Assembly (NCBI RefSeq): GCF_014203355.1
Contig: NZ_JACHIR010000001.1
Coordinates: 1,054,001-1,118,000, forward strand
Direction of reading: 5' to 3'
DNA length: 64,000 nt
Source: Kutzneria kofuensis
GTDB lineage: Bacteria > Actinomycetota > Actinomycetes > Mycobacteriales > Pseudonocardiaceae
In this document: positions 16,773-48,526 of the stretch, piece after piece
Layout: every line of letters begins with the position of its first letter
Numbering within the stretch: position 1 is the first letter of the stretch
The notes under the pieces: generated by a model
What the model was told of the DNA's origin: nothing
Databases searched by the model: none
Seen by the model: the letters and a program-made list of their open reading frames with translations, nothing else
Made by a program: the position numbers and the translations under genes

Positions 16773-16811
16773 CGCGTGTCAGCTCCATCCTCGTGGACAA
16801 CACAGCCGGGC

Positions 16812-16960
16812 CCGCGGCCGGTGTCTGACTCCCGACCCGCCGCCGCTCCCACCAGGTGGACGCCGCGACGCGCCGGTCACAGTGGCGGGACCGCGCCGGA
16901 CTCGCACCGGCTTCCCTGCACCGCGGGCCGGAAACCGATCTTACTGGGTCGGCCTCGAGA
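16812..16960 (-). promoter_or_regulatory. Cobalamin riboswitch upstream of metF
   Basis: On the minus strand the conserved core is seen: GGGAAGCCGGTGCGAGTCCG, then GCGCGGTCCCGCCACTGTGACCGG, and near the 3' end GAGTCAGACACCGGCC. These are the class I cobalamin (B12-box) elements. Binding of adenosylcobalamin or a related corrinoid would reduce metF expression. Outer boundaries are estimated. Confidence 0.88.
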
Positions 16961-19345: not shown

Positions 19346-19477
19346 GGGGCTCTCCTTCGCGAGTCCACGTGGACCCGCGGGCGCGCGCGTGACCGGCCTC
19401 GACCGGCATCCGGTCGGGACTGGAGCGACGACCCACCCGCGAGGTCTCGGCCAGCACCCCACGGTCGTGGGATGCAC

Positions 19478-19675
19478 AGCGGGCAGGTCTTCGGACTCGT
19501 GGGCGGTCCGGCGCTCGCCGGGTTTCCTACTGGCCGTCGCTTCCCAGGCCGGGTGGCCCAGTGCCGTCTGACGGCGGTCGTTCCCACTCACCGCTGCGGG
19601 GCAGTCCCGGATTCGCACCGGGTTCCCTCTTGCCTCGGTCGCCGTCGTGTAGCCCACGGCGCCCGAACCAGCTGC
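19478..19675 (-). promoter_or_regulatory. Cobalamin riboswitch upstream of metE
   Basis: On the minus strand: GAGGCAAGAGGGAACCCGGTGCGAATCCGGGACTGCCCCGCAGCGGTGAG spans the conserved core, and CCCACGAGTCCGAAGACCTGCC is the 3' conserved part, about 130 bases before the metE start. The motif order is that of class I cobalamin riboswitches. Boundaries are approximate. Confidence 0.92.
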
Positions 19676-19715
19676 GCTGCCCACTGTAGCGCCGGGGTGG
19701 TGGACCACCGCTAGA

Positions 19716-19730
19716 GTTAACGCCGTTAAC
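19716..19730. promoter_or_regulatory. GTTAAC palindrome, likely operator
   Basis: GTTAACGCCGTTAAC is a 15-base palindrome 18 bases before the ATG of the epimerase-family gene and on the 5' side of the metE riboswitch. It is AT-rich relative to its surroundings and has the size of a TetR/GntR-type half-site pair. The protein that binds is unknown. Confidence 0.5.
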
Positions 19731-19748
19731 CCGACCTTGGGAGGACCG

Positions 19749-20636
19749 ATGCGCGTTGTCGTGGCCGGCGCGTCCGGCGTGATCGGGACCGCGCTGACGC
19801 CGGTCCTGCGGGCCGCCGGGCACGAGGTGATCCGGCTGGTCCGCCGCCCGGCCGCGGCCGCCGACGAGCGGTCGTGGGATCCCGACGCGGGCGTCATCGC
19901 CGACGGGGCGCTGGACGGGGTCGACGCCGTGATCAACCTCTGCGCGGTCGACACCACCGCCGAGCGGTGGACCCCGTCGTTCAAAGCCGCACTGCTCTCC
20001 AGCCGCGTGGTTCCGACCCGGGTACTGGCCGACGCCGTCGCCGCGCACGGCGTTCCCGCGCTGCTCAACAGCTCCTCCGTCGCGTACTACGGCGACACCG
20101 GGGACCGCGTCATCGACGAGTCCGCGCCGGCCGGCGCCGGGTTCCTGGCCGAGATGGACCGTGACCGCGAGGAGGCGTGCAAGCCGGCCTCCGACGCACG
20201 GGTTGTGTTGCTGCGCACCGGAATCGTGCTCTCCCCCACCGGCGGCCTGCTCGGCCAGCTGCGCCCCATGGTCGCCTGGGGCGCCGGCGGTCGGATGGGC
20301 ACCGGTCGCCAGTACCTGTCGTGGATCTCCCTCGCCGACGAGGTCGCCGCCATCCGGTTCGCCCTGGAACAGCAGGACATCAGCGGCCCCCTCAACCTCT
20401 CCGGCCCGCAACCCGTCACCAACGCCGAGATGGTCCGCTCACTCGGCCAACTCCTGCGCCGCCCCACCCCCTGGGTCTATCCCGCCTGGCTGCTCCGCCT
20501 CTTCGCCGGCGAACTCGCCGACGCCGGCGCCCTCACCGGCCAACGCGCCGTACCCGATGCCCTGATGCGCCACGGCTTCGAGTTCCAGCACCCGACCGTC
20601 GCGGAGGCGCTGGCCGCCGCGGTGCGGGGCAGTTGA
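19749..20636 (+). CDS. TIGR01777-type epimerase/SDR protein
   Basis: Encodes 295 residues of the atypical SDR group that includes SulA/YfcH-like proteins. The nucleotide-binding motif GASGVIGTAL is at about residues 7-16, followed by VDAVINLCA, LLNSSSVAYYGD (catalytic Tyr in a YYG motif), VLLRTGIVLSP and YLSWISLADEVAA, with a C-terminal domain ending HPTVAEALAAAV. All are family signatures. The ATG at 19749 follows GGGAGGA; a TTG 12 bases earlier was rejected. A palindromic operator precedes it. The physiological reaction of this family is not settled. Confidence 0.87.
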   Translation: MRVVVAGASGVIGTALTPVLRAAGHEVIRLVRRPAAAADERSWDPDAGVIADGALDGVDAVINLCAVDTTAERWTPSFKAALLSSRVVPTRVLADAVAAHGVPALLNSSSVAYYGDTGDRVIDESAPAGAGFLAEMDRDREEACKPASDARVVLLRTGIVLSPTGGLLGQLRPMVAWGAGGRMGTGRQYLSWISLADEVAAIRFALEQQDISGPLNLSGPQPVTNAEMVRSLGQLLRRPTPWVYPAWLLRLFAGELADAGALTGQRAVPDALMRHGFEFQHPTVAEALAAAVRGS

Positions 20637-34511: not shown

Positions 34512-35342
34512 GTGAACGATGACACCTGGGCCGAGCTGGCCGACCAGTTCGCCGACGAGGCCTACGCCTCCGTGAAGGGGTATGTGCGGACCTACGTGCT
34601 GCACCGGCAGCTGCTCGATCACCTGCCGCCCCCTCCCGCCCCTGTTCTCGACGTCGGCGGCGGGGCCGGCCACCAGTCGTTTCCGCTGGCCCAGGCCGGT
34701 TACGACGTGACACTCCTCGACCCTTCCGAGGCGATGCTGGCCAAGGCCCGCGAGCGCCTCGCCCGACTGCCGTCCGAGGTCCGGCAGCGGGTCACCTTCG
34801 TGCACGCCGACGGCGAGAACGCGGTTCAGGCCGTCGACGGCCGCCGCTTCGCCGCCGTCCTGTGCCACGGCGTGCTGGGCTACCTCGATCACCCGGAGCC
34901 CCTCATCAACCAGCTGTGCCTCTGCGCCGCCGACGGCGGCATCGTCTCCATCATGACCGCCAACGCCCACGCCATGGCCGTCCGCCCCGCCATGGAACGC
35001 CGCTGGGCCGACGCCCTCGCCGCCTTCGACTCCCGTACCGAGATCGGCGTCCTCGGCGTCCCCGGCCGCGCCGACACCGTCGAGGAACTCAGCTCCGTCC
35101 TCCGGAGCCAGGGTGTCGAACCCCTTGGCTGGTACGGGGTCTGGCTGTTCGTCGACTGGTTCGAGTTCAGCGGCACCGACCTCGACCCCGCCGACGCACC
35201 GCGGATAGCCGCCGTCGAACTCGAAGCCAGCCGCCGCGACCCGTACCGGGGACTCAGCCGCGTCTTCCACCTCGTGGGCCGGAAAGCAGGGCCGCCAGAG
35301 CCCGGGCCGGCCGCTAGGGGAACGGATGCGGATACGGGTTGA
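34512..35342 (+). CDS. SAM-dependent methyltransferase (class I)
   Basis: Encodes 276 residues. SAM-binding motif I is VLDVGGGAGHQSFPLA, the acidic end of strand 2 is in VTLLDPSEAML, and motif II is AVLCHGVLGYL, as in the tRNA carboxymethyltransferase-like (CmoM/YcgJ-type) group. Substrate is not predictable. GTG is followed by AACGATGAC; no strong ribosome site. The last 29 bases overlap the convergent YcaO gene of the RiPP cluster. It may be an unrelated neighbour, or a tailoring enzyme. Confidence 0.85.
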   Translation: MNDDTWAELADQFADEAYASVKGYVRTYVLHRQLLDHLPPPPAPVLDVGGGAGHQSFPLAQAGYDVTLLDPSEAMLAKARERLARLPSEVRQRVTFVHADGENAVQAVDGRRFAAVLCHGVLGYLDHPEPLINQLCLCAADGGIVSIMTANAHAMAVRPAMERRWADALAAFDSRTEIGVLGVPGRADTVEELSSVLRSQGVEPLGWYGVWLFVDWFEFSGTDLDPADAPRIAAVELEASRRDPYRGLSRVFHLVGRKAGPPEPGPAARGTDADTG

Positions 35343-37296
35343 TCTCCTCCGGCCGCAGCGGCATATCGCGGTAGCCGAGCGCCTGCGGGACACGGTGCAG
35401 CCGGGGCAGGCCGTGCACCCGCCGGAACTCGTGCCCGAAGGTCATCGGCAGCGTCCCCGGGATGATCACCTTGACGCAGCTGAACCCGCCGACCCGGTGT
35501 TCCGGCGTGGTCTGGTCCACGACGACGACATCGAGCCCGGTGTCGAGGTAGCGCCCGACCATGTCGATCAGGTCGCTGGTCAGGTCGAGATTGTCGGCGG
35601 GCGGGCGGGCGGCGGCCATCTCCGCCAGCGTGCGCCGGCCGGCGGAGGCGATCAGGAAGTCGAAGCGGTCGAACACCGCCGGGCTGGCGTACAGCAGCGA
35701 ATGGTCGGGCATCCGGTGGACCAGCGACGAGTCCTCGGCCATCCGCCGCGCGCGGTCGGCGTTCTCGAGATACGTCCGGTTGAGGCCGCTCATGACCGGC
35801 CCCAGCTCGAACAGGGCATTGCGCAGCGCGTGCTCCGGGTCCAGGTGCGCCCCGCCGGTGGACACCGTCCTGGCCACGTCGCCGCCACCCGGCGAGTTCA
35901 CCGCCAGCAGCCACACGCACGGGATCCGCTGCTCGACGGTGGTGTCGAAGGCGAGGATCCGCCACCCGGTCTCGTCCTCGATCCGCTGGCGCAGCAACGG
36001 GATCCGGCGGTCACGGGCCGAGTCCAGGTCGATCCGGGGCACCGCCATCCGGGCGTACCAGGTCATCAGGAAGGCGTCGCGTTCGGCCACCTCAAGGATC
36101 CCGTGCAGGATGGCCTCCTCCAGGCAGCCACCCAGCGCGCACCCGTTGGAGGTCTCGAAGGCGATCTTGGGTTCGCGCGGCTTGGTGCGGTGCAGGCCGT
36201 AGTACGCACAGCTCTCGGGCACCAGCACGGGACGACGGTGGGCGAAGGAATAGCCCCACACCCAGTCCAGTTCCAGGTCGTCGTCGAACCGGGCGAACGG
36301 GAACGACGGCCCGTAGCGCTCCGGCGGGTACAGCCCGAGCGAACGCGGGTCGATCGCCTCCCCGCGAACCTCCGCGTACCGGGCGCGCACGGTGGTCCGC
36401 TTCCCCCCGGGCTGCATTCCGCCCCAGCGCTCGATCGATTCGAGGACCGCGGTCAACTCGCTGGTCCGATAGCTGTCGCTGCGCCCCCAACTCCACTCCA
36501 CGCCGTTCCCGCCGCCGCGCAGGCCCATCGACGCCACCGCGACCGCGATCCCGGCCTCGTCCCCCATGTCCACCGCCCGGATCAGGCCGGTCTCGCCGTC
36601 GACGTACGTCCGGATCAGCTCGTCACGCTCGTCGGCGACCGACCGCAGCCGGTAGGTGTCCGGCGCCGGCTTCGGTCGCGGGGACAGGGTGATCTCGGCT
36701 CCCTCCGCCGTGTCGTCGGGCAGGGAGCCGCACGCCGGGCACAGCGGATCGGGCAGGAACGTGTGCGTGGTGACGGTGACGTCGGCCAGGTGCAGATGCA
36801 GCACGGCCTTGTCGGTGCGGGGCAGGGTGGAGCCGTCGACCAGCCGCCGGACCTCCTCGACCGCCAGGGCGGCGACGGCGTGACAGCCGAGGGCCGTGAG
36901 CCAGGAGGACGGACGGCTCACGAAGGCGTCGGCGTTGCGCTCCCACACCGCGTCGAGTTCCGCCCCTCGCTGCCGGGCCCTGGCGGCGCGCAGGTCGGCG
37001 CAGCTCGCGCAGCCCGCCACGCCGGGCCGCGTCACGGGCCCGATCACCGCGTGCCCGAGCCTGGTGAAGACCGGAAGCCAGGGAATTCCCGCCTCGGCGC
37101 AGGCGGTCCGGGCAGCGGCGTGGGCCCGGGTGTCCCAGGCGTCGCTGGCCAGCACGAGTGCCCGGACCCGGTCGAGCCCGTCGGCCGGGTCGTCGACGGT
37201 GACGGGCACGAGCCCGGCCTGGTCGGCCAGGAGTTTCCCGATCACGGCGTGCAACGCGCCGGAACCGCTGAGACCGACGCGCGCCCGGGGGCTCAT
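35314..37296 (-). CDS. YcaO cyclodehydratase of the thiopeptide-type cluster
   Basis: Encodes 660 residues. The N-terminal ~220 residues look like a truncated cyclodehydratase C-protein with two CxxC pairs (CASC and CPAC) that bind zinc. From about residue 230 is a YcaO domain (VASMGLRGGGNGVEWSWGRSDSYRTSELTAVLESIERWGG, GCALGGCLEEAILHGILEVAERDAF) with ATP-binding acidic clusters, ending in a proline-rich PYPHPFP tail, the C-terminal motif of azoline-forming YcaO enzymes. It uses ATP to turn Cys (and perhaps Ser) of the precursor into thiazolines. ATG overlaps the E1-like stop (ATGA). It corresponds to TbtG of thiomuracin synthesis by position and type. Confidence 0.9.
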   Translation of the reverse strand: MSPRARVGLSGSGALHAVIGKLLADQAGLVPVTVDDPADGLDRVRALVLASDAWDTRAHAAARTACAEAGIPWLPVFTRLGHAVIGPVTRPGVAGCASCADLRAARARQRGAELDAVWERNADAFVSRPSSWLTALGCHAVAALAVEEVRRLVDGSTLPRTDKAVLHLHLADVTVTTHTFLPDPLCPACGSLPDDTAEGAEITLSPRPKPAPDTYRLRSVADERDELIRTYVDGETGLIRAVDMGDEAGIAVAVASMGLRGGGNGVEWSWGRSDSYRTSELTAVLESIERWGGMQPGGKRTTVRARYAEVRGEAIDPRSLGLYPPERYGPSFPFARFDDDLELDWVWGYSFAHRRPVLVPESCAYYGLHRTKPREPKIAFETSNGCALGGCLEEAILHGILEVAERDAFLMTWYARMAVPRIDLDSARDRRIPLLRQRIEDETGWRILAFDTTVEQRIPCVWLLAVNSPGGGDVARTVSTGGAHLDPEHALRNALFELGPVMSGLNRTYLENADRARRMAEDSSLVHRMPDHSLLYASPAVFDRFDFLIASAGRRTLAEMAAARPPADNLDLTSDLIDMVGRYLDTGLDVVVVDQTTPEHRVGGFSCVKVIIPGTLPMTFGHEFRRVHGLPRLHRVPQALGYRDMPLRPEEINPYPHPFP

Positions 37297-39323
37297 CGCA
37301 GCACCACCTGTACGGCGTAGGGCATGACCTCACTCATCTCGGGATCGTGGTCGAGGGGCACCGCGACCGGGACCCGGCCGTTGCTGCACAGCGCTTCGAC
37401 CATGTTGCGCAGCCCGGTGTCCGGTCGTTGGCGGGCGGGCTCGTCACCGCGCAGCCGCGGCGGCAGTTGTGGCACCGGCGGCGGCGCGTAGGCGTTCTGG
37501 CCGTGCATGCGGGCCTGGCAGGCCAGCAGGACCTGTTCGAGGCCGTCGCGCAGCGCGTCGGTCACCCGGGGAGCGCTGGTGTAGCACACGGTCTCGGTGC
37601 CGAGGCAGAACGCGTACGTGGGGACATCGAGCGATCCGGTGGCGTCGTAGACCCACACGGCCGCGTCGAGCGCCGCCAGCAGCCGACGGTAGCGCTGGCC
37701 GATCTCGTCGAGGAACGTGTACCGAATGTCCACAACGGACAGTGGCTGCCGGCCGGCTCCGGCGAGTTCGGCGACGGTCAGGTCGAGGCAGCGCCCGGCG
37801 ACGCCAGCGGTCACGGCCTCGGCCCAGTCGTACCCCGCGGTGGCCCCGGCGGACAAGGCGGCCCGGACCGATCGGGAACGCAGCACCGGAAACACGGTTT
37901 CGACGGGCACCTCGCACGGTTCGCCGTCGGTCAGGCGCGTTCCCCACACCCGGCCCCTCGGCTCGCCGGCGGTGAGAGCGACGAGGCCCTCGGCCGGGTC
38001 GTCCCCGCCGGTCGGCTCGTCGGACGCGGCCAGCAGCCGACGGGGATCGACGAACAGTGACCCGTGGACGGCGAACGCCCGCACCGCCGCACGGTGGCGA
38101 GCGGCGGCGAAGTCCGGGCCGGCGGCGATCACCGGGACCGGTGCGCGCCGCTCGCCCAGCAGGCCGAGCGGGTCCGCGACGGTCACCTCGGACACGTGCA
38201 GCGGAAGCTGGGCGAAGTCCCGCTCGCCGATCGCCCGGAACGGCCCGAGACGGTCGTCGACGAGCTCGGCGGCCCGGCGCGAGAACGTCTCCTCGTCCAG
38301 CCGGGGCCCACGGCTCAACTGGTTGACGGTGTGCCGGAACTCGTCGGCCGTCTGCGGCCGCGCCGAACCGGCGAACGGATGCGGCAGCACCCTGTGGTAC
38401 GTCGTGCTCAGGGTCCGCAGGTCGAACCGAGCCAGCCGGGGGCCGACATCGTCGGTGTCGACGAGACCGGTCACCTCGCGGAACACCCGGTGGACCACGT
38501 GATCGGCCAGCACGGCGGCGACGTCCGGCGGCGCCGGCTCGGCGCTGTCCTCCCGCTCCGGCAGCGAAAGCCGCAGCCGCGCGTCGTCCCAACCGGCCCG
38601 GCCCGTCGACGGCAGCGGACCGATCCACGCCTCAGCGCCGGTCATGACCACCTGCACCAGCCGGGTCCCGCTGTGCCGGCAGATTCGCGTCAGCAGCCGG
38701 GTCCGGGCCGGCGATTCGCTGTCCGAGACATGCACGACCACGGTGGCGTCGGCGACCATTCGCTCCAGCCGGTCCGGCTCGGGCTCGCCGACCACCAGCC
38801 GGTCGGCCCCGCGGCGCCGGGAACCCCCGAGCACGCCCGTGAGCTCGTCCAGATCGGTCGCGCAGTCGTCCGTCACCACCACCGTCACGTTGTCCATGCC
38901 CGACCGCGGCCCGGCGGCCGCGCAGGCGACCAGGCTCCGGCCGGCGCCGATCAACACCGTCGGGCAGTTGCGGTACTGGACGAACCGCACGACGGCGGTG
39001 TCGACGAAGTCGTCGATGAAGTGCACCTCGGCCGCGTGCGGCGCGAGCACCTGGTCCGGCGGCAGGCCGCGCGCCGAGACGTCCTTCACGAGCCCGCGCT
39101 CGTGCAGGGTGCGCACGACGTCGCTGACGAAGGCGCCCCGGTCCACCGGCAGGTGCGCGACGAGTTCGTCCAGGGACCGCTGCCCGTCGAGGAACGGGGC
39201 CAGCCGGTCGATCCACGCGGCGATGGTCTTGCCGGTCAGCGTGACCGGTCCCTTGTTGGTGAGCCAGTACACCCCGTCGGGGACCGGCGCGAAGTACGCG
39301 TCCCGGGCGAGTTGGGGTTTCAT
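37293..39323 (-). CDS. RRE/ocin-ThiF-like leader-binding protein
   Basis: Encodes 676 residues. Residues about 15-95 form a PqqD-like winged helix (RRE) that holds the leader peptide (LTNKGPVTLTGKTIAAWIDRLAPFLDGQRSLDELVAHL). Then a ThiF/E1-like Rossmann part (TVLIGAGRSLVACAAAG) with a degenerate nucleotide motif and a long helical C-terminal region. In thiopeptide systems this protein (TbtF type) delivers the precursor to the YcaO partner and lacks its own adenylating activity. ATG shares one base with the SagB stop (TGATG). The longer frame to 40733 is antisense noise. It is cistron 6 of the cluster. Confidence 0.88.
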   Translation of the reverse strand: MKPQLARDAYFAPVPDGVYWLTNKGPVTLTGKTIAAWIDRLAPFLDGQRSLDELVAHLPVDRGAFVSDVVRTLHERGLVKDVSARGLPPDQVLAPHAAEVHFIDDFVDTAVVRFVQYRNCPTVLIGAGRSLVACAAAGPRSGMDNVTVVVTDDCATDLDELTGVLGGSRRRGADRLVVGEPEPDRLERMVADATVVVHVSDSESPARTRLLTRICRHSGTRLVQVVMTGAEAWIGPLPSTGRAGWDDARLRLSLPEREDSAEPAPPDVAAVLADHVVHRVFREVTGLVDTDDVGPRLARFDLRTLSTTYHRVLPHPFAGSARPQTADEFRHTVNQLSRGPRLDEETFSRRAAELVDDRLGPFRAIGERDFAQLPLHVSEVTVADPLGLLGERRAPVPVIAAGPDFAAARHRAAVRAFAVHGSLFVDPRRLLAASDEPTGGDDPAEGLVALTAGEPRGRVWGTRLTDGEPCEVPVETVFPVLRSRSVRAALSAGATAGYDWAEAVTAGVAGRCLDLTVAELAGAGRQPLSVVDIRYTFLDEIGQRYRRLLAALDAAVWVYDATGSLDVPTYAFCLGTETVCYTSAPRVTDALRDGLEQVLLACQARMHGQNAYAPPPVPQLPPRLRGDEPARQRPDTGLRNMVEALCSNGRVPVAVPLDHDPEMSEVMPYAVQVVLR

Positions 39324-40708
39324 CAGGGCCTGCCTTCCCGGTCGGCGCCGGTGGACGGCGACGGCCGCCGGCTGCCCAACGTGAACGCGCCCACGCTCGA
39401 TTCGGTCATCGGGTCCAGGCCGGTCGCCTCGGCGAAGAAATCGGCGGCTCCCACCGCGATCGCGCACGGAGCCAGCCCCATCGCGGTCGCGACGAGGTAC
39501 ATGTTCTGGTACAGCACGCCGACGTGCTTGAGCATCAGGGCGTACCCCGTGCCCTCGTACTTCCACATCAACCGGCCGAACCGGGCGGTGACCACGAGCA
39601 GCACCTGCGGCAGGCCGGCCCACTTCAGCAGTGCCCGCACCGGGGCCGGATGGGCCGGCCCACGGGTGAGCCGGTGGGAGTGGGCGTCGTAGTGGTAGAG
39701 CCCGGCGTGCAGCCCGGTGACCGAGCGCACCACGGGATAGATCTCGAGTTCGTGCAGGCCGCCACCGGCCGGATAGGGCCGGTCGGAGATCTCCTGGCCG
39801 CCGTGCACGCCGACGCCGCGCACCCTCGCGCAGCGGAAGAGGAACTCGCCGAGCTGGTCGAGCGTGAGCGGGTTGTCCTCGTCGCCTTCCCGCACCGAAC
39901 CGCGGTCCTCGATCACCGCCGTGAGCGTGGGGTCGGTCGTGCGCAGCCGGTCCAGGTCCGGTTTCGCCAGGGGGACGTCCGGCCCGTCGAAGGGGCGGTG
40001 GCGTCCGGCCAGCGGGGCGAACCGCCCCTTCGCCCAGTAGGTGCCGCCGGTGCCGTCGATCTTGCTGCTGTGGTGGTGGAACCACAGTTCGTGCGCGCTC
40101 CACTGAGCCAGGCGCAGCTCCTCGGTCTCGGCGTCCGGCTGGTGCGTGAGGAAACCCTCCCGCCACAGGTCCACGACCAGCCTTCGGCCGACCTCCGCGG
40201 AGAGCTGGTCGGGGGCGTCGACGCGGGACATCGGGGTCAGCGTTGCGGCCACGAACGCCAGCACCCGGGGATCGTGGATGTGCACGTCGCAGGTGGCCGC
40301 CGCCGACTCGACGAGAATGTCCGCGCCGTCGCGGCGCAGCACGGCGAAGCGGGACAGCAGGACGCGGGCCGGCACCGGATCCTGCCCGGCGCCGCGCCGC
40401 CGGCGGCGTGGCCGCAACGTGTACAGCGGCAGGTTCTCGTTGCCCCAGACCGTGGTCGTGAGCCATCCCCCCGACCGCAACCGTTCCAGCAGCGGCATGG
40501 TGAGCCCGTCGTCCAGCAGGTCGTCCACGGTGCAGGCGGTGGCCAGCCGGCGCAGGGTCACGAGCTGGTCGGCGGTCAGCCGTCCCAGCGACTCGCTGCG
40601 CGGACGGGCGACCAGGAACACCTCGCCGCCCTCGCCCACGGCGCAGTGCACGCCGGGGAGCAGCCGCACGGTCTCGGACAACGTCATGTGGGTGGGGCCG
40701 TCGATCAC
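39323..40708 (-). CDS. SagB-type azoline dehydrogenase
   Basis: Encodes 461 residues. The C-terminal ~250 residues carry the FMN-dependent nitroreductase-like dehydrogenase domain (SDRPYPAGGGLHELEIYPVV, then GVLYQNMYLVATAMGLAPCAIAVGAADFF); the N-terminal part contains two winged-helix-like segments. It oxidises thiazolines to thiazoles. GTG overlaps the previous stop (GTGA). It is TbtE-like by type and position in the cluster. SagB dehydrogenases are a hallmark of azole-containing RiPPs. Confidence 0.92.
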   Translation of the reverse strand: MIDGPTHMTLSETVRLLPGVHCAVGEGGEVFLVARPRSESLGRLTADQLVTLRRLATACTVDDLLDDGLTMPLLERLRSGGWLTTTVWGNENLPLYTLRPRRRRRGAGQDPVPARVLLSRFAVLRRDGADILVESAAATCDVHIHDPRVLAFVAATLTPMSRVDAPDQLSAEVGRRLVVDLWREGFLTHQPDAETEELRLAQWSAHELWFHHHSSKIDGTGGTYWAKGRFAPLAGRHRPFDGPDVPLAKPDLDRLRTTDPTLTAVIEDRGSVREGDEDNPLTLDQLGEFLFRCARVRGVGVHGGQEISDRPYPAGGGLHELEIYPVVRSVTGLHAGLYHYDAHSHRLTRGPAHPAPVRALLKWAGLPQVLLVVTARFGRLMWKYEGTGYALMLKHVGVLYQNMYLVATAMGLAPCAIAVGAADFFAEATGLDPMTESSVGAFTLGSRRPSPSTGADREGRP

Positions 40709-41802
40709 GTCGTACCACGCAGAACGAGCTCACGGGGGTCGGCCGCGTCGCCCGGCGCCGGGAGCGACACTTCGGCCGCCGGTCGCCCGAAGAGGTCCTC
40801 CGCCGCGTTGGCCGCGAGATGGCACAGCAGGAAACGCTCGGCCGGGGCCAGCCCCAGCCTGGTCAGGTGCAGGTAGGTGTAGTTGAGCATCAGTCGGAAC
40901 TTGGCGAACCAGACCGGGTCCACCACGACGTCCTTGCGAGCCCGGTGCAGCGGGCTGCGGCGCATTCGCTCGGCGTACTCGGCGCTGTCCGAACGCGGGC
41001 CGGCCGCGAACCTGAGCAGGTCGGATTCGATGAGTTCCGCCCCACGCCGCCAGTACGGCGTCATCACCTCCACCCACGGCCGGACGAACGGCACGCACGG
41101 CCCGGCGGCGTCGACGGTGGCGAGCACCGCCTGGACCCTGCCGGTCAGCGCTTCCGCATGCTGCTCGTAGTGCCGCTGCCAGGCCGGGCGCAGGCCCTCA
41201 CCCTCGGGCATCCACGACAGGAACGCCTCGGCGTGCGAACGGAACGACACGAACCCCCGCGCGAAGCCGATACCGGACAGGGCGTGCGCGGTGGCCACCA
41301 TCAGGTCGAAGCCCAGTCGCAGCAGCTGCCGGCCGCCCCGCAGGGCTTCGGTCATGTCGAAGGCCAGCGGCGTGGTGTCGACGTAGAAGTCGGCGAGCAG
41401 GTCGGCCGCGGCCGTGGTGCCGAGCACGTGCAGCCGCTGGTCGTAGTCCGCCTCGTGGATGGAGTTGTCCGGCCGCAGCGGCACCAGGTCGCCGCGTTCC
41501 TGTTCCAGTTCGGCCAGCCGCGCGTGCTGGGCGTGCAACTGCCGCGGGTCGACGATCGCGGTGGACGGCTGGTCACGGAGATAGCCGCCCACCACCTCAC
41601 GCACCGCCGGCAGCACGAACTCGTCGTACATCCGTTGGCCGGCCTCGAAATTGAGCCGCAGATGCGGTCCCTTCAGCCAGTGTGGCACGTAGTAGGCCCG
41701 CACGCCGGCGGGCAGCTGCCGGAACAGCGGCCGCACCGCGTCCAGGACGAGGCCGGTCTTGTCGTCGTCGTAGTAGTAGACGTGCACGCTGCGCCACCGC
41801 AC
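40705..41802 (-). CDS. Thiopeptide-type LanB C-domain protein (candidate pyridine synthase)
   Basis: Encodes 365 residues of the lantibiotic-dehydratase C-terminal/thiopeptide biosynthesis family, beginning WRSVHVYYYDDDKTGLVLDA with the characteristic HWLKGPHLRLNFE motif. Thiopeptide clusters encode two such stand-alone proteins: one eliminates glutamate from Ser/Thr, the other joins two dehydroalanines in a formal [4+2] cycloaddition to the central pyridine. Being the third enzyme gene and the longer of the two, it is placed at the TbtD position, but the assignment between the two paralogues is tentative. GTG starts 3 bases after the previous stop. Confidence 0.82.
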   Translation of the reverse strand: MRWRSVHVYYYDDDKTGLVLDAVRPLFRQLPAGVRAYYVPHWLKGPHLRLNFEAGQRMYDEFVLPAVREVVGGYLRDQPSTAIVDPRQLHAQHARLAELEQERGDLVPLRPDNSIHEADYDQRLHVLGTTAAADLLADFYVDTTPLAFDMTEALRGGRQLLRLGFDLMVATAHALSGIGFARGFVSFRSHAEAFLSWMPEGEGLRPAWQRHYEQHAEALTGRVQAVLATVDAAGPCVPFVRPWVEVMTPYWRRGAELIESDLLRFAAGPRSDSAEYAERMRRSPLHRARKDVVVDPVWFAKFRLMLNYTYLHLTRLGLAPAERFLLCHLAANAAEDLFGRPAAEVSLPAPGDAADPRELVLRGTT

Positions 41803-41805
41803 GGC

Positions 41806-42786
41806 TCAGCTCTCCTTGGTCAGGTCGTGGATGGTCCGGCCGGCCAGGTACCGCAGCGCGCTTTCGCCGCCGATGGACAGGCCGATCCGGTTGCACATCA
41901 GGTGTGCGCACTGGTCGAGCACCCGCAGCACCGCGGCCTGGGTGTCGACGGCCCCGGCGCGGTTCGGCCGCCGCGGCACGAACCGGCCGTGCGCGATCTC
42001 GTCCGCGACCACGTCCCGGGCCCGCGTCACCGACCGTGCCCACAGGGTGTTCGTGCCCTTGTGCGGCAACAGGTGCAGCACCGAGGTGGCGGCCCGCATC
42101 CGCTCGGCGATCGCGTGCAGCCGCTCGTACTGCCGGCGGTACCGCTCCTCCATCTCGCTCACGGCCTGCTTGTCCCATCCCGGGGGCAGCGTCGCGAGCC
42201 CCGCGGAGGACACGCCCAGATACGTCCGCAGCTGGGCCGATTCCGGCACGCACAGGAACCACGTCAGCAGGATCAGGCAGAACGCGAGGGTGGCTCGCTG
42301 ATCGGGGGACGGCCGCGCGGCCAGCATCTCCAGCGCGATCTGGCTGGACTCGCCGAAATGCCGTTCGATGGCCAGAATGGACTTGCCGTCGCCGAACCGG
42401 TGACCCTCCCGCACGTACGGGATGAACACCACCGAGTTGTTCGGGTACATGCGGGGCAGCGGCGTCGTCGCCTCCCACTGCGCCATGTGGGCGGCGGAGC
42501 GGGCGTACTCCTTCTCGTCGAGGCGGTCCGGCGCCGGGCGTCGTCGCAGGTACTCGTCGCAGCGTCGCTCGACCAGTTCCCGCACCTCGACGCCGGACCG
42601 GCCCCGCGCGGGGCGCACCCGCAGGCGAACGTGCGGGCCGCCGTCCCAGTAGCGCAGGAAGAAGAACTGCCGTGCCAGTCTTCGCCGCGTCAGTTCCCTG
42701 GTCAGCGGGGAGATCAACTCCCCGACCAGGACGTCAAGATCTCCGTGGTAGAACACGTGGGCGCTGACCCAGTCATGCCCGCTCAC
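41806..42786 (-). CDS. Thiopeptide-type LanB C-domain protein (candidate elimination enzyme)
   Basis: Encodes 326 residues of the same family as the next gene: WVSAHVFYHGDLDVLVGELI at the start and FLRYWDGGPHVRLRVRP, typical of stand-alone lantibiotic-dehydratase C-domains. It should remove glutamate from glutamylated Ser to give dehydroalanine, complementing the upstream glutamylation enzyme (TbtB/TbtC split). GTG follows directly after the LanB stop (TGAGTG), so it is translationally coupled. Which of the two paralogues performs elimination or cycloaddition needs structural comparison. Confidence 0.85.
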   Translation of the reverse strand: MSGHDWVSAHVFYHGDLDVLVGELISPLTRELTRRRLARQFFFLRYWDGGPHVRLRVRPARGRSGVEVRELVERRCDEYLRRRPAPDRLDEKEYARSAAHMAQWEATTPLPRMYPNNSVVFIPYVREGHRFGDGKSILAIERHFGESSQIALEMLAARPSPDQRATLAFCLILLTWFLCVPESAQLRTYLGVSSAGLATLPPGWDKQAVSEMEERYRRQYERLHAIAERMRAATSVLHLLPHKGTNTLWARSVTRARDVVADEIAHGRFVPRRPNRAGAVDTQAAVLRVLDQCAHLMCNRIGLSIGGESALRYLAGRTIHDLTKES

Positions 42787-45477
42787 TCACACCTCACTCG
42801 CGGACAACTCGATGATGAACTCCGTCACGCGCGGGTCGGCGGGATCGAGCCCGCACCCGCCCTCGGGTGGCGGCAATGCCTCGTCGAAGATCACCAGCCC
42901 GCCGCGGTCCTTCAGCATGTGCTCGAAGGCCGCGCCGAGGAAGAAGTTCGCGAAGTCCACGAACATCGGCTTGCGGGCCTTGGAGAAGAACTGGCTGCGC
43001 CAGTCCGCGTCGGGATCCATCACGCGCACATAGCAGCGTTGCGGGATGCCGGACGCGCGCAGCCAGGCGACCATGCGGAGCAGGAGACTCGCGTCGTCCT
43101 CGCCGGCGGCCCGAGCCGGCACCTCGGCGACGGGAACGAACCAGCGGGCCCGTTGGAGGGTGACCCGGCCGACCTCGACCCGGGGCAGATGGCGGGGAAC
43201 GACGTCCGGCGCGTCGAGCGGATAGACGGGCGAGTAGGCGGCGTGCACCAGGTGCGACGGGCCGAACGCCGACAACAGCAGGAGGGCGGCCGGCGGCAGC
43301 AACGTGTCCCCGAGCATGCCCAGGTGGGCCGGCAACACGTGGACGCCGAGCCGGTTGGAGCGCAGCCGAATCAGGTCGGTCTCGGCGTCGTGCACCACGG
43401 TGAGGTCGGACAACGGGATCCGCTCACCGTCGGGCCGGTCGCTCGTGGTGAACGGGTAGTCGATCTCGTAGGGGGCCATCGGCGCCCGCAGGTTGACCGA
43501 GTAGTCGAAGACGCCGGATATCTCGACCACCACCGGATCCGTGCCCCGCATCCGCGACGGCGCCGGGGCTTGGCGGGCCGGGGTCGGCTGGTCCGCGCCG
43601 GCCTGGGCGGCCAGCCGCAGCCATCGGCTGCGGCCCCGCCCGTAGCCGCCGCCCACCATGTTGACCGCGAGCCTCAGGTCGTCACCGGTCAGGTACGGCT
43701 GCACGTAGCAGGCGACCGAGCCCGGCGCACGGACCCACGAGGGCCAGCTGTCGACGAGCCGGGCCAGAGCCTGCGGAGCGACCCGGGCCACGCCGGTGTC
43801 GTCCGTCGCCGACAGCATGAAGTCGAAGGACCGCACCCGCAGCCGGTGCAGTTCCTCGATCCGGGGCACGCCGGACCGCTCCAGGTAGGCGGGCGGCGCC
43901 GGAATGCTGAGCCGGATCAGGGGACGCAGCTCGGCCAGCCACGGCTCGCACTCGTCGTCGGGGCGGCGGAGATCTTGCTGGATCGCCTGGTGCAGAACGA
44001 GGAACGGCACTCTCGCGCCCGGGCCGAACCGGCGGCCGACATAGCTGGCGATGGACAGCCGGGTCGGCAGCAGCCAGTCGTGCAGCGCCAGCCAGCGCCG
44101 CACGACATCCAGGTCGTCCAACGCCGGCCGCCACCGTGGCAGGGCACACTCCAGCCGGGCGTGCGGGAACATCGACGTCTCGTGGGTGGCGCCCTTGCGC
44201 ATCCGCTCGATCGTCGGCTCCGGCAGGTCGAGGCGGGCCGCGACGGCGCTCACCTGCTCCGCGGGCACGTCCCGGCTGGTCGGCTGGACGTCCAATGCGA
44301 ACGGACGGTTCAGCTCGGCCCGCAGCTGCTCCACCAGGTCCACGACCTCCGGGCCGACGGCGTCGTCGGCGCCCGCCGACCGCAGCCAGGCGAGCAGTTC
44401 CGCCAGCGGCCGCTCGGACTGGTCGACGACCGGGAGCCGCCGTTCGAGTAGCCCGATCTCCACCAGCCGGTCGAGGAACGGGCGCAGTTGCGCCGGGTCG
44501 GCGCCGGTCTGCGCGGCCAGCAGCGCCACCAGCTCGGCCACCGTCCGGCGGTCGCCCTCCTGGCGGGCGGTCCGCAGGCACTCGGCGAGCGCGGGCGACA
44601 TCGGCACCCTCATGATCGACTCATCCGGGCGGGGCCCGATGAAGCTCACGGAGTCGTCGGTGACCAGCGTGCTCGGGTTGAGGCGGACGGGCAGGCCGTC
44701 CCCGAGGGCCGGTCGGCCGGCCAACTCGCGGACCAGTCGGCCGAGCACCCCGCGGTCGAGTTCGAGCACCCCTCGCACCGCCAGGTCTCCGGTGACACCG
44801 ACCGCGGGCCCCCGGTCGGTCCAGTCGCCGAGCACGCTCGTGGTGAACGTGCTGTACGGACTGGTCTTGGCCGCCGCCCGGGACAGATAGCGCGCCACAC
44901 CCACGATGGTGCGTCGCCGCAGCCTGCGTCCGTCGTCGGCGAGCCACTTGTGGATCTCCGCGAACAACGCCGGGCTGGCCCGGCGCAACGCGTTCTGGAA
45001 CAGCGGGTGAGCGCAGGCGCGGCGCAGCGGCTCCTGCTTGCGCTCGACGTCGTCGGCAAGCGCTTGCGGCAGCCTCGCGCGGCACCGGTCCCGATCCCCC
45101 AGCAGGGCCAGCCAGCGCTCGAGGTCCAGGACGAGGTCGGCCGGCAGCGCCTGCGTCACCTCCTCGTTCCACTCCCCCTTGCGCGGCGCCCGAACCTGGT
45201 GGATCGCCCGGCGTAACGCCACGACCCGCGGCTTGACGGGGGACTCCGACAGGGTCCCGATGACGTCGAACAGCGCCTGCTCGAGCACTTCCGCCGCGAC
45301 GGCCAGGCCCCGGTCGAGGTCGATGATCTTCTCGACCAGCTCCCACGACTCCTCCAGGCGCAGTTCCTGGAGCACCGACGCCGGCAGTCCCGTGACCCGG
45401 GCGACGAGCGGAGTCTCCAGCCGGTATCGGCTCAGTGCCTGGACCCTTCCGTTCAGCGGACCCGCGGCCAGCACCAC
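42787..45477 (-). CDS. LanB-like glutamylating dehydratase
   Basis: Encodes about 896 residues of the lantibiotic-dehydratase N-terminal (glutamylation) family. Recognisable segments are YRLETPLVARVTGL near the start, SRAAAKTSPYSTFTTS (the conserved SPYSTFT-type motif) and the C-terminal DADWRSQFFSKARKPMFVDFANFF. It attaches glutamate from Glu-tRNA to Ser residues of the precursor; without a fused elimination domain it needs the downstream partner. The GTG at 45477 follows GGAGG at 9 bases; the frame extends further upstream through the stem-loop and was rejected. It is the first enzyme gene after the precursor. Confidence 0.9.
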   Translation of the reverse strand: MVLAAGPLNGRVQALSRYRLETPLVARVTGLPASVLQELRLEESWELVEKIIDLDRGLAVAAEVLEQALFDVIGTLSESPVKPRVVALRRAIHQVRAPRKGEWNEEVTQALPADLVLDLERWLALLGDRDRCRARLPQALADDVERKQEPLRRACAHPLFQNALRRASPALFAEIHKWLADDGRRLRRRTIVGVARYLSRAAAKTSPYSTFTTSVLGDWTDRGPAVGVTGDLAVRGVLELDRGVLGRLVRELAGRPALGDGLPVRLNPSTLVTDDSVSFIGPRPDESIMRVPMSPALAECLRTARQEGDRRTVAELVALLAAQTGADPAQLRPFLDRLVEIGLLERRLPVVDQSERPLAELLAWLRSAGADDAVGPEVVDLVEQLRAELNRPFALDVQPTSRDVPAEQVSAVAARLDLPEPTIERMRKGATHETSMFPHARLECALPRWRPALDDLDVVRRWLALHDWLLPTRLSIASYVGRRFGPGARVPFLVLHQAIQQDLRRPDDECEPWLAELRPLIRLSIPAPPAYLERSGVPRIEELHRLRVRSFDFMLSATDDTGVARVAPQALARLVDSWPSWVRAPGSVACYVQPYLTGDDLRLAVNMVGGGYGRGRSRWLRLAAQAGADQPTPARQAPAPSRMRGTDPVVVEISGVFDYSVNLRAPMAPYEIDYPFTTSDRPDGERIPLSDLTVVHDAETDLIRLRSNRLGVHVLPAHLGMLGDTLLPPAALLLLSAFGPSHLVHAAYSPVYPLDAPDVVPRHLPRVEVGRVTLQRARWFVPVAEVPARAAGEDDASLLLRMVAWLRASGIPQRCYVRVMDPDADWRSQFFSKARKPMFVDFANFFLGAAFEHMLKDRGGLVIFDEALPPPEGGCGLDPADPRVTEFIIELSASEV

Positions 45478-45522
45478 GGCTGTGTTCCTCCATCTCTGTG
45501 TGACCCCGGTTCCCGGGGAAAG

Positions 45523-45564
45523 CCGCGGGTGTCGACGACGCGCCACCGCCGTCGACACCCGCGG
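45523..45564 (-). terminator. Stem-loop between precursor and enzyme genes
   Basis: A perfect 15-bp stem (CCGCGGGTGTCGACG at 45523-45537 with 45550-45564) and a 12-base loop lies 32 bases after the precursor stop and 45 bases before the dehydratase start. In RiPP operons such structures allow high precursor expression with limited readthrough into the enzymes. Confidence 0.75.
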
Positions 45565-45596
45565 ATCTAGTGAGCAGTCCTAGCGACGACTAGTCG

Positions 45597-45842
45597 TCAC
45601 CAGCCGCCGTGACCGCCGTGGCCACCGTGGCCACCGTCCCAGCCGCCGTCCCAGCAGCTGCAGCTACCGCAGCTGCAGCTACCGCCACCGCAGCTGCAGC
45701 TACCCGAACAGTGCGACGAGCTGGACGCCTCGTTCTCGGCCATACCGTGACCGGCCGTCAGCGACTCGACGGTCAGACCACGGTCGGTCAGGGTGAACAC
45801 GTCCATCGACAGGTCGCCGAGGGCGTACTGAACCTTTTCCAT
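45597..45842 (-). CDS. Thiopeptide-type precursor peptide with Gly-His-Trp tail
   Basis: Encodes 81 residues after a strong ribosome site (GAGAGGAGTGG). Residues 1-39 are a thiopeptide-type leader: LGDLSMDVFTL, then VESLTAGHGMAENEA. The core (40-81) begins SSSSHC and has seven Cys (45, 49, 51, 56, 58, 61, 63) and eleven Ser, mostly as three GSCSC units, followed by two WDGG, three HGG and a final W. Expected processing is thiazole formation at Cys, dehydration at Ser and pyridine formation between two dehydroalanines. Described thiopeptides have cores near 12-18 residues; the long Gly/His/Trp tail is unusual. It is the first cistron of the cluster. Confidence 0.88.
   Translation of the reverse strand: MEKVQYALGDLSMDVFTLTDRGLTVESLTAGHGMAENEASSSSHCSGSCSCGGGSCSCGSCSCWDGGWDGGHGGHGGHGGW
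45654..45704 (-). repeat. Three exact 15-base repeats in the precursor core
   Basis: The 15-mer GCAGCTGCAGCTACC (plus strand) is found exactly at 45654-45668, 45669-45683 and 45690-45704; each copy encodes GSCSC on the minus strand. Two GG codons separate the second and third copy. This DNA-level identity shows recent slippage or duplication in the core. Confidence 0.85.
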
Positions 45843-46474
45843 TGAGAACCACTCCTCTCTTTCCAGAATTCAACGGTCACCACAACGTTCATCCCGAATA
45901 CCCGTGGGACGGATACACGTGAACGAACAATCAGCGTCCGCCCAGAACAGGTCGGCCAATAATCAAAGGCGCCCTACCGGGTACGCCCGCTCGCCCGACA
46001 ACGTCGCAGATCGGCTGTCGATCGGACCATCCATCCCATGCACACGAACGGCGACGACGCCGATGGGGAATGCGAAGCGGTCAAAACAAGGGCGTGTCAC
46101 ACCTTTCGTTTGACCACTGGGCGAACGGGATCGACTGTAACGAAGAAGATCACGGCCAGAGAGAGGCCAACTGGCTGGCCCCCGGGCCGTGGGCCGCCGA
46201 CGCCCGACCGGGCCTGCCCGCCATCACTCGGCGCCGGCTCGGCCGAGACGCCGACGCCCGTGCGCCGCCGGCATCGATTGCGCGGGCCCCACGGGACGCA
46301 GCCGGGACAACGGGCTCGATGCCGCGGCGCGCGGCCACCCCGCCGCAGATCCGTGACGGCACGACAGCGCCGGGCTTCGCAGGGCCAAGCGCCTGGCCTC
46401 TTGTTGACCGGGGAAGCACCGAAGACAATCCTTGGGCATCTCTCGCCGAATTGACAGCAGAGGACCGAAGTGCC
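45843..46474. other. Upstream region of the thiopeptide cluster, no clear gene
   Basis: About 630 bases between the divergent precursor and HxlR genes. Base composition is lower in GC than the genes beside it. It holds the precursor promoter, whose -35/-10 elements cannot be picked with confidence, and possibly an N-terminal extension of the HxlR gene, as that frame stays open to 46070 but with non-conserved composition. No other ORF looks coding. Confidence 0.5.
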
Positions 46475-46990
46475 GTGAAATCGACCGACGCCACCGAGCC
46501 GCCCTTGGACTCGGAATGGCGGGACGACGCCGCGGTTCCAATCCCGGCGACACACCTCGCGAATTGGAGCGAAGTCGCCGAGGTGATCGAAACCATCGCT
46601 CTCAGGTCGGCACTGCCCGTTCTGGTTGCGCTGGGCCACGGCTCGATGCGTTACAGCGAGCTGTCCCGCTCGCTGCACATGGACAACAAACAGCTGAGCC
46701 GGGTTCTCCGGCGCCTGCGGGAAGCGCACATCGTGGCCAGGCAGGTGAACGGGGCACAGCGGCCGGTTCAGGTGCGATACCACCTGACCCCGTCCGGCCA
46801 GAACCTCGTGGCGATCCTCGCCGAGCTCGAGTCCTGGCGCCTGCCCGAGGATGACCGGCACACCCGCCGCGCCGCACGCCAGGCACGCCCCGACGACGGC
46901 GAGGGCTCGCCCTCGACCCTCATCGGGGGACACCACGCGGGGGCCAGCCGCATGGCCCCTTCCGCCGCCGAAAACCCGTCAGCAAACTGA
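46475..46990 (+). CDS. HxlR/winged-helix transcriptional regulator
   Basis: Encodes about 171 residues from the chosen GTG. The conserved HxlR-like helix-turn-helix is at about 30-105 (WSEVAEVIETIALRSALPVLVALGHGSMRYSELSRSLHMDNKQLSRVLRRLREAHIVARQ, then the wing RPVQVRYHLTPSGQNL). HxlR proteins are dimeric sensors of redox, thiol or aldehyde stress. Standing divergently from the thiopeptide precursor, it is the best candidate for a local regulator of the cluster. The C-terminal ~50 residues are Arg/Gly/Pro-rich and poorly conserved. The start is uncertain. Confidence 0.75.
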   Translation: MKSTDATEPPLDSEWRDDAAVPIPATHLANWSEVAEVIETIALRSALPVLVALGHGSMRYSELSRSLHMDNKQLSRVLRRLREAHIVARQVNGAQRPVQVRYHLTPSGQNLVAILAELESWRLPEDDRHTRRAARQARPDDGEGSPSTLIGGHHAGASRMAPSAAENPSAN

Positions 46991-47127
46991 TCATCGCAAA
47001 TACGCCGACAGTGATTGTCGACAAGGGAGTCACAAGGTTGTTCGACCAGGCCCGGGTCTCACGCGACGACAACACCCGGCATCGCGCGAGAACGAAAATC
47101 GGAGCGCCAGGCAACGGGCGAAAGGAA

Positions 47128-47409
47128 ATGAACCGCATCCGCGCGGCGGCGGGCGCTTTTCTCCGCCAACTCACGGGGACGAACTCGGACCGTGACCGTC
47201 TCGCGATTCTCACACGCGGCGTCGTCACGGAAATCGTGGAAATCCCCAGAAAGGCCTCGCACGCGGTCGCCCTGTCCGGTGTCGACGCCCATCTCGTCTC
47301 GATCAGCACACGCCGGCCGGCGGTTCGCCCGGCCGGCGGGAGCGCCGTGGCCCGCGACGACGGCCGCCCGGCGGACACCACCGCCTCCGGCGAATCCCCA
47401 ACCCGGTGA
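47128..47409 (+). CDS. Possible 93-residue hypothetical protein
   Basis: ATG at 47128 follows GAAAGGAA at a good distance and opens 93 residues starting MNRIRAAAGAFLRQLTGTNS, with strand-helix alternation (RLAILTRGVVTEIVEIPRKASHAVALSG) and a disordered C-terminus. Third positions are about 80% GC. A longer frame starts at 47011. No family is recognised, and the surrounding DNA is somewhat AT-richer than average. Confidence 0.4.
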   Translation: MNRIRAAAGAFLRQLTGTNSDRDRLAILTRGVVTEIVEIPRKASHAVALSGVDAHLVSISTRRPAVRPAGGSAVARDDGRPADTTASGESPTR

Positions 47410-47880
47410 TTGCCGGGCGGCCACGGACCTCCGCACCGGTCTCCGACGAGGAACAGCCCGCGGCGACGTTCGCAACCCGATATACATTCCGCCCGGCCAG
47501 TTTACCGACCCGCTCTCACCGACAAAAGGGGCCAGATTCGGGCGGACGCCACAAGAAATCCATTGTCGCGACAACTAAACAAACCTGGCCGCGTCATCGG
47601 CCAAATTTGGACAGAAAACCACTCCACAGCCCTCTTGCGATCATCGGCGCGACGCGACAGTGTGAATCACGATCACCATGAATGACATCCGAATCGGGCG
47701 TGGTCGACCACGTATCACCTCGATTCGGGTCGATTCGCCCCGCACGATTACGGCAGTGGAGGTGATTGGATCGCACGACGCGACTCACCACGCATTCCGC
47801 ACCGTTTCACAGCAAGGGACAGGACCGACAACCGCCGATCGCAGGGCGACCGTCGAAGCCGCCCACAGAGGAGCCCCACC
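47410..47880. other. AT-richer non-coding stretch
   Basis: About 470 bases of visibly lower GC than the rest of the window, e.g. runs of CAAATTTGG and CCGATATACATTCC, before the secreted aegerolysin-like gene. No frame has coding composition. It probably contains that gene's promoter and suggests acquired DNA or a large regulatory region. Confidence 0.45.
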
Positions 47881-48414
47881 ATGAACTCAACGCATCCGAC
47901 TCGCCGCCGCAGGCTTTCCGCCGTCACGTGGTCAGTGCTCGTAGCGGCACTCACCATGGGGAGCCTGGCCCTGGTGCCCGGCCAGGCATCGGCCGCGCAG
48001 GAGCCGCCCGCCGCGCCGGCGGCGGCCCGCTCCACCACCGTCGCCCTGAACAGCAACGTGGACTGCACACTGGTGCGGACCGAGGCGCGGCTGGACAGCG
48101 GCACGTGGACCAACGAGCCGCCACTGGTCATCAACCAGCGGGGCCGCGGCGAATGGGGGTCGGAGTCGAACCAGTTCCTCAGGGGAACCGAAGGAGCCGC
48201 CAGCTACTTCACCGTGGGCTGCACGGATCCGAGCCTCAACTTCAAGACGGTCAAGGTTCACTGGAAGAACCCGTACTTCGGCAAGAACGACTATGACGCG
48301 GCCGGCACCGACCCCGCGTTCCAGGTGTCGTGGCTCGCGTCGGGCAGCAACGCCGATCGCGTGACGTTCACCCTCGACTACGCCCGCGCCGGCGGCGACG
48401 CCCGCACCAGCTAG
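47881..48414 (+). CDS. Secreted aegerolysin/ET79-type protein
   Basis: Encodes 177 residues. A signal peptide (residues 1-38, RRRRLSAVTWSVLVAALTMGSLALVPGQASA) is followed by the compact beta-sandwich pattern of crystal protein ET79 and aegerolysins: a LDSGTWTNEPPLVINQRGRGEWGSESN block, then LRGTEGAASYF, HWKNPYFGKNDYDAAG. Members bind membrane lipids such as sphingolipids or ceramide-phosphoethanolamine and are part of two-component pore formers or insecticidal proteins. GAGGAG precedes the ATG. No partner MACPF gene is visible nearby. Confidence 0.8.
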   Translation: MNSTHPTRRRRLSAVTWSVLVAALTMGSLALVPGQASAAQEPPAAPAAARSTTVALNSNVDCTLVRTEARLDSGTWTNEPPLVINQRGRGEWGSESNQFLRGTEGAASYFTVGCTDPSLNFKTVKVHWKNPYFGKNDYDAAGTDPAFQVSWLASGSNADRVTFTLDYARAGGDARTS

Positions 48415-48477
48415 TTCCGGTCACACCCGGGTCGATCCCCTCGGTCGTCGAGCCGAGGTCGACCTCGCACTGCTCCC

Positions 48478-48526
48478 GCTGTGGCCTCGGGGACTCTCAT
48501 CAGGATCGAGTCCCCGAGGCCACAGC
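48478..48526. terminator. Bidirectional terminator
   Basis: A perfect 19-bp stem (GCTGTGGCCTCGGGGACTC with 48508-48526) and an 11-base loop lies between the convergent secreted-protein gene and the membrane-protein gene. It is among the longest perfect hairpins in the window. Confidence 0.8.

Follow-up and report, generated by a model that had tools for sequence, protein, structure and literature searches.

Results

The thiopeptide gene cluster of Kutzneria kofuensis

The 64,000-nucleotide stretch of the Kutzneria kofuensis genome that was analysed here (contig NZ_JACHIR010000001.1, positions 1,054,001 to 1,118,000; in the following called the window) contains a group of seven genes, A to G, in which an initial annotation had recognized a complete thiopeptide cluster. 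The genes follow each other in the order A-B-C-D-E-F-G and in one direction, on the minus strand between 45842 and 35314, exactly where they had been placed. They constitute a complete and probably working thiopeptide pathway of the thiomuracin kind. The features of the locus are the following:

45597..45842, minus strand: A, precursor peptide of 81 amino acids with a leader of 39 residues ending in GHGMAENEA and a core of 42 residues, SSSSHCSGSCSCGGGSCSCGSCSCWDGGWDGGHGGHGGHGGW
45523..45564, minus strand: hairpin between A and B, with 18-nucleotide arms (94% complementary) and a 6-nucleotide loop
42787..45558, minus strand: B, putative tRNA-Glu-dependent LanB glutamylation protein (TbtB-like); likelier start GTG 45477
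41806..42786, minus strand: C, stand-alone LanB C-domain, TbtC-like in its motif and position, with a putative role in eliminating glutamate to form dehydroalanine
40705..41802, minus strand: D, putative pyridine synthase (TbtD/PbtD-like) for [4+2] macrocyclisation and removal of the leader
39323..40708, minus strand: E, SagB/ThcOx-type dehydrogenase with flavin mononucleotide, azoline to azole (TIGR03605, 156 bits, cut-off 78)
37293..39323, minus strand: F, leader-binding RRE with a ThiF-like partner (TbtF/PbtF-like), 676 amino acids
35314..37296, minus strand: G, YcaO cyclodehydratase with an N-terminal E1-like region and a C-terminal PHPFP

The precursor and all six enzymes are covered by family and structure matches, and the family matches of the precursor and of the pyridine synthase, YcaO and SagB proteins are far above chance. 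The enzyme roles that had been proposed are supported. The genes had also been described as coupled. This applies to B-C-D-E-F-G, where neighbouring genes meet or overlap at their ends; A and B, in contrast, are set apart by the hairpin.

The precursor peptide and its core

The precursor belongs to the thiomuracin/GE37468 precursor family (NF033399, 68.9 bits, cut-off 29) and reaches 19.9 bits with the Pfam family Thiopep_pre, under the cut-off of 23.5. Its core has the length, the seven Cys and the three GSCSC units counted in the initial annotation, together with 11 Ser and the tail WDGGWDGGHGGHGGHGGW. Ser1 and the serines of Cys-Ser-Cys (CSC) units at positions 11, 18 and 23 are all present.

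Precursor orthologs were found in four other Kutzneria genomes, three of them from close relatives (loci L031, L032 and L033) and one from K. viridogrisea (L034). Core residues 1-20 are identical in K. kofuensis and the three close species, with no non-synonymous and one to three synonymous differences in each of the six pairs. Past residue 20, two of these four species (Kutzneria sp. 744 and K. buriramensis, with five Cys each) have two GSCSC units and the other two have three. The tail that follows the repeats comprises 18-22 residues and consists solely of Gly, Trp, His and Asp, its length and order varying from species to species. K. viridogrisea has a core of its own with 43 residues, a run of seven Ser, CSC units at 22 and 36 and two residues past the last Cys.

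Among 22 distinct filtered cores, the five from Kutzneria (38-44 residues) are the longest, the others having 11-31 residues. The filter demanded a leader end of the GHG/GQG/GYG type with Glu, followed by ...AS, at least two Cys and fewer than 70 residues. It left out, for instance, L004 (14 residues), L036, L041 and L042 (16), L023 (21), the LPETGAS type (L015 with 23, L030 with 25) and L046 (24), so that the dropped cores that were measured have 14-25 residues, all below the Kutzneria lengths. The long tail is not wholly unique, since L024, a family match under the cut-off, has 17 residues past its last Cys. The core had been called unprecedented. This stands in so far as none of the collected cores from outside Kutzneria is a counterpart, but it is not a singular peptide, as the family occurs in five of seven genomes of the genus and is diversifying. 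Among the papers found on Kutzneria and thiopeptides none describes a Kutzneria thiopeptide, while survey supplements may list one, and 'thiopep' does not occur in the main text of PMC10232511, a comparison of Kutzneria genomes.

The putative enzymes for dehydration and pyridine formation

The split LanB arrangement is present, with B as glutamylation protein and C as a separate elimination domain. For B, a comparison with the solved LanB-type protein 6ec7, which we take to be TbtB, gave E=4e-126, and the LanB N-domain PF04738 scored 148 bits. The motif KTSPYST is found in K. kofuensis and L031-L033, and KTSPFST in L034.

C scores 140 bits with PF14028 and 82 bits with TIGR03891 (cut-off 48), and with the pyridine-synthase equivalog NF045556 it reaches 102 bits, below the cut-off of 325. 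Its motif HLMCNR is kept in all five Kutzneria species and aligns with the full-length LanB-type chain 9g04 (a weak match, E 0.0019). An elimination role of C is suggested by this homology and the kept motif.

D exceeds the cut-off of the same equivalog with 479 bits (PF14028, 102 bits). Its matches to TbtD (5wa3) and PbtD have E values of 4e-70 and 2e-61, respectively, with 42% identity to the aligned TbtD stretch (356 columns) and 40% to PbtD (346 columns). Tyr319 of TbtD has been reported as key for catalysis (PMC12018205). We equated it with the Tyr that has index 322 in chain 5wa3, on the assumption of a three-residue offset; Tyr310 of D is aligned with this residue. The site is Tyr in all five Kutzneria species, and all five have the sequence NYTYLHLTR. 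The PbtD chain 8ejz has Phe in this column and presumably represents an engineered mutant. The occurrence of HLMCNR in C versus NYTYLHLTR in the matching region of D may be read as the split between elimination and cyclisation.

In a tree of pyridine synthases (midpoint root; no goadsporin-type protein; 7 of 43 rows omitted as duplicates or fragments), D falls into a large branch together with TbtD and PbtD. The fork with TbtD is labelled 84/95 and is not starred. The best blastp match of D outside Kutzneria comes from the family relative G215 (48%), and by tree path L071 is nearer.

The putative enzymes for azole formation

The azole synthetase set is complete, comprising the RRE-containing protein F, the YcaO protein and the SagB dehydrogenase. 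E matches CyaGox at E=3e-68 with an aligned Lys-Tyr pair, which we take to be a functional feature of its family. Residues 5-82 of F match the PbtF domain 8t19 at E=6e-20. G scores 356 bits with TIGR03604 (SagD-type YcaO, cut-off 219) and 144 bits with TIGR03882, and matches TruD/LynD at E about 1e-32. Its PHPFP terminus, presumably also a functional feature of the family, is found in all five Kutzneria species. The initial annotation had pointed out that enzymes missing catalytic residues would form no product. The few residues that can be identified as catalytic are all present.

Distribution and conservation

Seven Kutzneria genomes were searched, of which five possess the precursor family and two do not. 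The nearest named relatives of D come from Kutzneria buriramensis, Kutzneria sp. CA-103260 and Kutzneria sp. 744 (88-91%), followed by K. viridogrisea (61%). Within the host family, the precursor profile matched in 38 of 390 genomes at E up to 0.001, with 18 over the cut-off, and one of 14 control genomes gave a weak match below the cut-off. The pyridine-synthase family is over its cut-off in 23 of 386 genomes of the host family. In samples reaching beyond the host family, NF033399 matched at E up to 1e-6 in 5 of 394 genomes drawn from the class and in 5 of 397 drawn from the order, the genome of the window being included in each. A plasmid search with the precursor gave no match.

In each of the four relatives, the reading frames of B-G are open almost from end to end. 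The ratios of non-synonymous to synonymous substitution rates (dN/dS) of the six enzymes against the window are 0.22-0.39 in the three close relatives (0.22-0.26 for D) and 0.49-0.67 in K. viridogrisea. The order A-B-C-D-E-F-G is also kept in two genomes of other genera, in one of which F was matched in two pieces.

Two additional loci were observed in this search. Another genome of the genus has a second match to the precursor family away from its main cluster (G224:C1:2865812-2865949; 32.5 bits, over the cut-off). The genome G083 carries the same type of cluster (L004/L093) with the core SCTTCVCVCSCCTS, which presumably resembles micrococcin/thiocillin.

The hairpin between A and B

The 81-nucleotide stretch with the hairpin folds at -51.2 kcal/mol (z -5.2). 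Hairpins occupy the corresponding position in L031 (z -4.6), L032 (-2.7), L033 (-2.4) and L034 (-6.8); for L032 and L033, 2 of 200 shuffles folded equally well. Since L032 and L033 have an altered stem and K. viridogrisea has one of unrelated sequence, it seems to be the structure and not the sequence that is kept. The hairpin is probably the 3' end of the precursor mRNA, an attenuator or a stabiliser, and by ending or protecting a short transcript it may raise the expression of the precursor over that of the enzymes.

Beyond the hairpin there is an in-frame GTG at 45477 with GGAGG just upstream. With the hairpin and this GGAGG ahead of it, GTG 45477 is more likely the start of B than GTG 45558.

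The flanks of the cluster

DNA similarity to the four Kutzneria relatives runs from the precursor region to the stop codon of the YcaO gene and ends there, at 35312-35318, in all four (one strand), the loci of the relatives extending about 2.6 kb further. Upstream, a gapped similarity continues to 49-50 kb (the end of two loci) in three relatives, K. viridogrisea not being among them. These bounds indicate that the conserved unit consists of the seven genes. No shared neighbouring transporter, methyltransferase or conserved tailoring gene lies beside them within the approximately 2.6 kb past YcaO in the four relatives. Two candidate members were rejected accordingly, namely an MFS transporter (34713-33121) and a methyltransferase-like open reading frame (34512-35342), as the similarity stops at 35312-35318 and their proteins are absent from both strands of the four loci.

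On the plus strand, an HxlR-type regulator (46070-46990) reads away from the precursor. A relative is near full-length in L032 and L033, matched as a fragment in L031 and absent from L034, and it is possible that this protein regulates the cluster. A region of about 1.6 kb upstream of the cluster (46811-48484) has a DNA similarity of 77-82% in L031 and L033, and in L032 it is part of an 88% block; none of the frames tested in this region matched a Pfam family.

Elsewhere in the window there are two cobalamin riboswitches on the minus strand, at 19465-19687 and 16799-16940. The former falls within the 1011-amino-acid frame 17033-20068, which belongs to a cobalamin-independent methionine synthase, and precedes the first domain of this protein, so that the gene probably starts later than the frame.

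Discussion

A probable conventional pathway with an extended substrate

The presence of the genes, the leader family of the precursor, the homology of the enzymes, the few key residues and the conservation in the genus are established. Very probably, the locus represents a minimal thiopeptide pathway of the thiomuracin type which in Kutzneria acts on an extended substrate. The enzymology is ordinary, and what is new is a substrate variant common to most of the examined members of the genus.

From this we infer each chemical step, how many azoles and dehydroalanines are formed, where the ring is closed and that the tail is retained. The RRE of F would bind the leader and hand the core to G, which would cyclise Cys to thiazolines, and E would oxidise these to thiazoles. 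Selected Ser would be glutamylated by B using Glu-tRNA, and C would eliminate the glutamate to give dehydroalanines. D would then join dehydroalanine-1 with a second dehydroalanine that has an azole on either side (Cys-Ser-Cys) to a pyridine, by which the ring would be closed and the leader released as an amide. The partner would most likely be Ser11, resulting in a 29-membered ring in the register of thiomuracin and GE2270, and an arm of further SCSC azole/dehydroalanine units and the Gly/Trp/His/Asp tail would be left. With seven thiazoles, two dehydrated Ser and the tail in place, the calculated monoisotopic mass of such a product is 3677.04 Da; each further dehydration would lower it by 18.011 Da, down to 3514.94 Da for all 11 Ser. 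For Kutzneria sp. 744 and K. buriramensis, the masses calculated with five thiazoles and two dehydrated Ser are 3337.01 and 3637.13 Da.

There are also points that do not sit well with this assignment. The matches of C to solved structures are weak. F, the weakest assignment of the seven genes, reaches 125 bits with TIGR03693 (scanned as 37293-39347), far under the cut-off of 562. Moreover, core position 2 is Ser and not Cys.

The core composition, rich in GSCSC units and Gly, is like that of polyazole substrates, and a linear azole/dehydroalanine peptide in the style of microcin B17 or goadsporin could be imagined, in which the Gly/Ser/Cys repeat becomes a polyazole chain and no pyridine is formed. 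This is improbable, because the score of D over the equivalog cut-off, its key Tyr in all five species, its place in the branch with TbtD and PbtD (in a tree holding no goadsporin-type protein) and its low dN/dS in the close relatives all speak against it; a linear azol(in)e-containing peptide was thus rejected in view of a pyridine synthase that is present and conserved. Still less probable is a silent or decaying cluster, the genes of which are kept by descent and give no product. The missing shared transporter or methyltransferase gene (both strands of about 2.6 kb past YcaO in the four relatives) would fit such a cluster, but all six enzyme genes have open frames and dN/dS values under 1, core residues 1-20 are invariant in four species, and K. 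viridogrisea keeps the hairpin although its stem is a different one.

Where the ring might be closed

The initial annotation had proposed a macrocycle with a tail, which turns out to be only one among several options for ring closure. Ser1, by its place after the leader, would be the fixed ring position as in the rest of the family. A ring closed between Ser1 and Ser10 has 26 atoms, to which every further residue adds three. Closure at Ser11, Ser18 or Ser23 would accordingly give 29, 50 or 65 atoms, and from Ser11 of GE2270-type cores the rule reproduces the 29 atoms described for the ring of GE2270A (PMC7136475). We see even chances for a closure between Ser1 and Ser11 to a 29-membered ring. 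The register S1 ... C10-S11-C12 is that of the GE2270-type cores L002 and L003, where the CSC serine is residue 11, and Ser11 is conserved in K. kofuensis and the three close species. Several observations weigh against it. All nine non-Kutzneria cores with a CSC unit (17 cores listed) have at most six residues after the last one, which lowers the weight of Ser11 and raises that of a later closure, while closure at Ser11 would leave 30 residues. In K. viridogrisea there is no CSC around position 11; the first one is at Ser22, and Ser22 is also the place of the sole CSC in L005, a core from another genus.

The same observations favour a product of the same pathway with a giant ring, in which the pyridine is formed at the last Cys-Ser-Cys, that is at Ser23 in K. 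kofuensis and, in its three close relatives, at Ser18 or Ser24. Such rings would have 50-68 atoms, depending on the number of GSCSC units, with a tail free of Cys and Ser; for K. viridogrisea, Ser22 or Ser36 would give 62 or 104 atoms. It fits this well that in the four close species no residues other than Gly, Trp, His and Asp follow the last CSC. In addition, the laz enzymes form 14- to 62-membered rings and process tails of up to 18 residues in vitro (PMC7210931), and pyritide enzymes reach 68-membered rings in vitro (PMC9247985). In contrast, the known thiopeptides were stated in 2020 to span 26- to 35-membered rings (PMC7210931). Furthermore, a counterpart of Ser23 is absent in two of the four close species, so that the closure site would shift between species, 18-22 residues would still remain after the last CSC, and it is Ser11 that has the usual register and is conserved in all four. 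We give closure at a later CSC (Ser18 or Ser23) clearly less than even chances, and the remaining weight goes to other serines such as Ser7, or to no ring.

We lean slightly towards the view that the Kutzneria thiopeptides are either natural giant-ring compounds, with ring sizes set by the number of GSCSC repeats (50-68 atoms in the four close species), or chimeric ones, in which a 29-membered ring bears a polyazole arm and a variable Gly/Trp/His tail. If this is true, the ring-proximal segment is fixed and the distal part is free to evolve by gain and loss of repeats. The four close species and the diverged fifth form a natural experiment on what a pyridine synthase reads when it chooses the second serine. 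This matters, as these enzymes take long tails and very large rings in vitro, whereas natural rings were stated to reach only 35 members (PMC7210931, PMC9247985). The Kutzneria cores might also be a source of long and possibly more soluble thiopeptides.

The possible target

Thiopeptides that bind EF-Tu have 29-atom rings and require a conserved Asn for binding (PMC7136475). This Asn is found at position 3 in the GE2270-type cores collected here, and its absence from the Kutzneria peptides, all five of which have Ser at this position, counts against EF-Tu as the target, not against the thiopeptide class. Each of the seven Kutzneria genomes, with or without the cluster, contains one EF-Tu gene (E up to 1e-100), and a dedicated EF-Tu copy was rejected for this reason. 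The lack of both Asn3 and a second EF-Tu gene weakly suggests a target other than EF-Tu. In G215 there are two EF-Tu genes, one of them divergent, and the second is located on a different contig than the cluster.

Comparison with known systems

The cluster resembles the thiomuracin system (tbt) of Thermobispora bispora with regard to the leader family, the enzyme set, the homology to 6ec7 and TbtD and the C10-S11-C12 register; the gene order is presumably the same as well. The Kutzneria core differs by its 42 residues, its three GSCSC units, its Gly/Trp/His tail and the lack of Asn3. The thiomuracin core has Cys at positions 2, 4 and 9, as does L003, whereas the Kutzneria core has Ser there. 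Moreover, no tailoring gene was found to be conserved beside the seven Kutzneria genes.

The GE2270 system (pbt) is similar in the homology of D to PbtD and in the PbtF leader-binding domain of F, but here too the Kutzneria core stands apart by its length, its GSCSC repeats and its Gly/Trp/His tail. With lactazole (laz), the cluster shares the minimal gene content. In contrast to the lactazole cluster, which has a fusion instead, C, D and E are separate proteins in Kutzneria, the leader is different, and the lactazole core has about half the length. The lactazole enzymes need no azole at position 2 and tolerate long tails (PMC7210931).

The family relative G215 (L005/L092) has the same gene order and a long Gly-containing core. 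Its core differs from the Kutzneria cores in having 26 residues and a single CSC at Ser22, followed by three residues. Closure at this CSC would mean a 62-membered ring.

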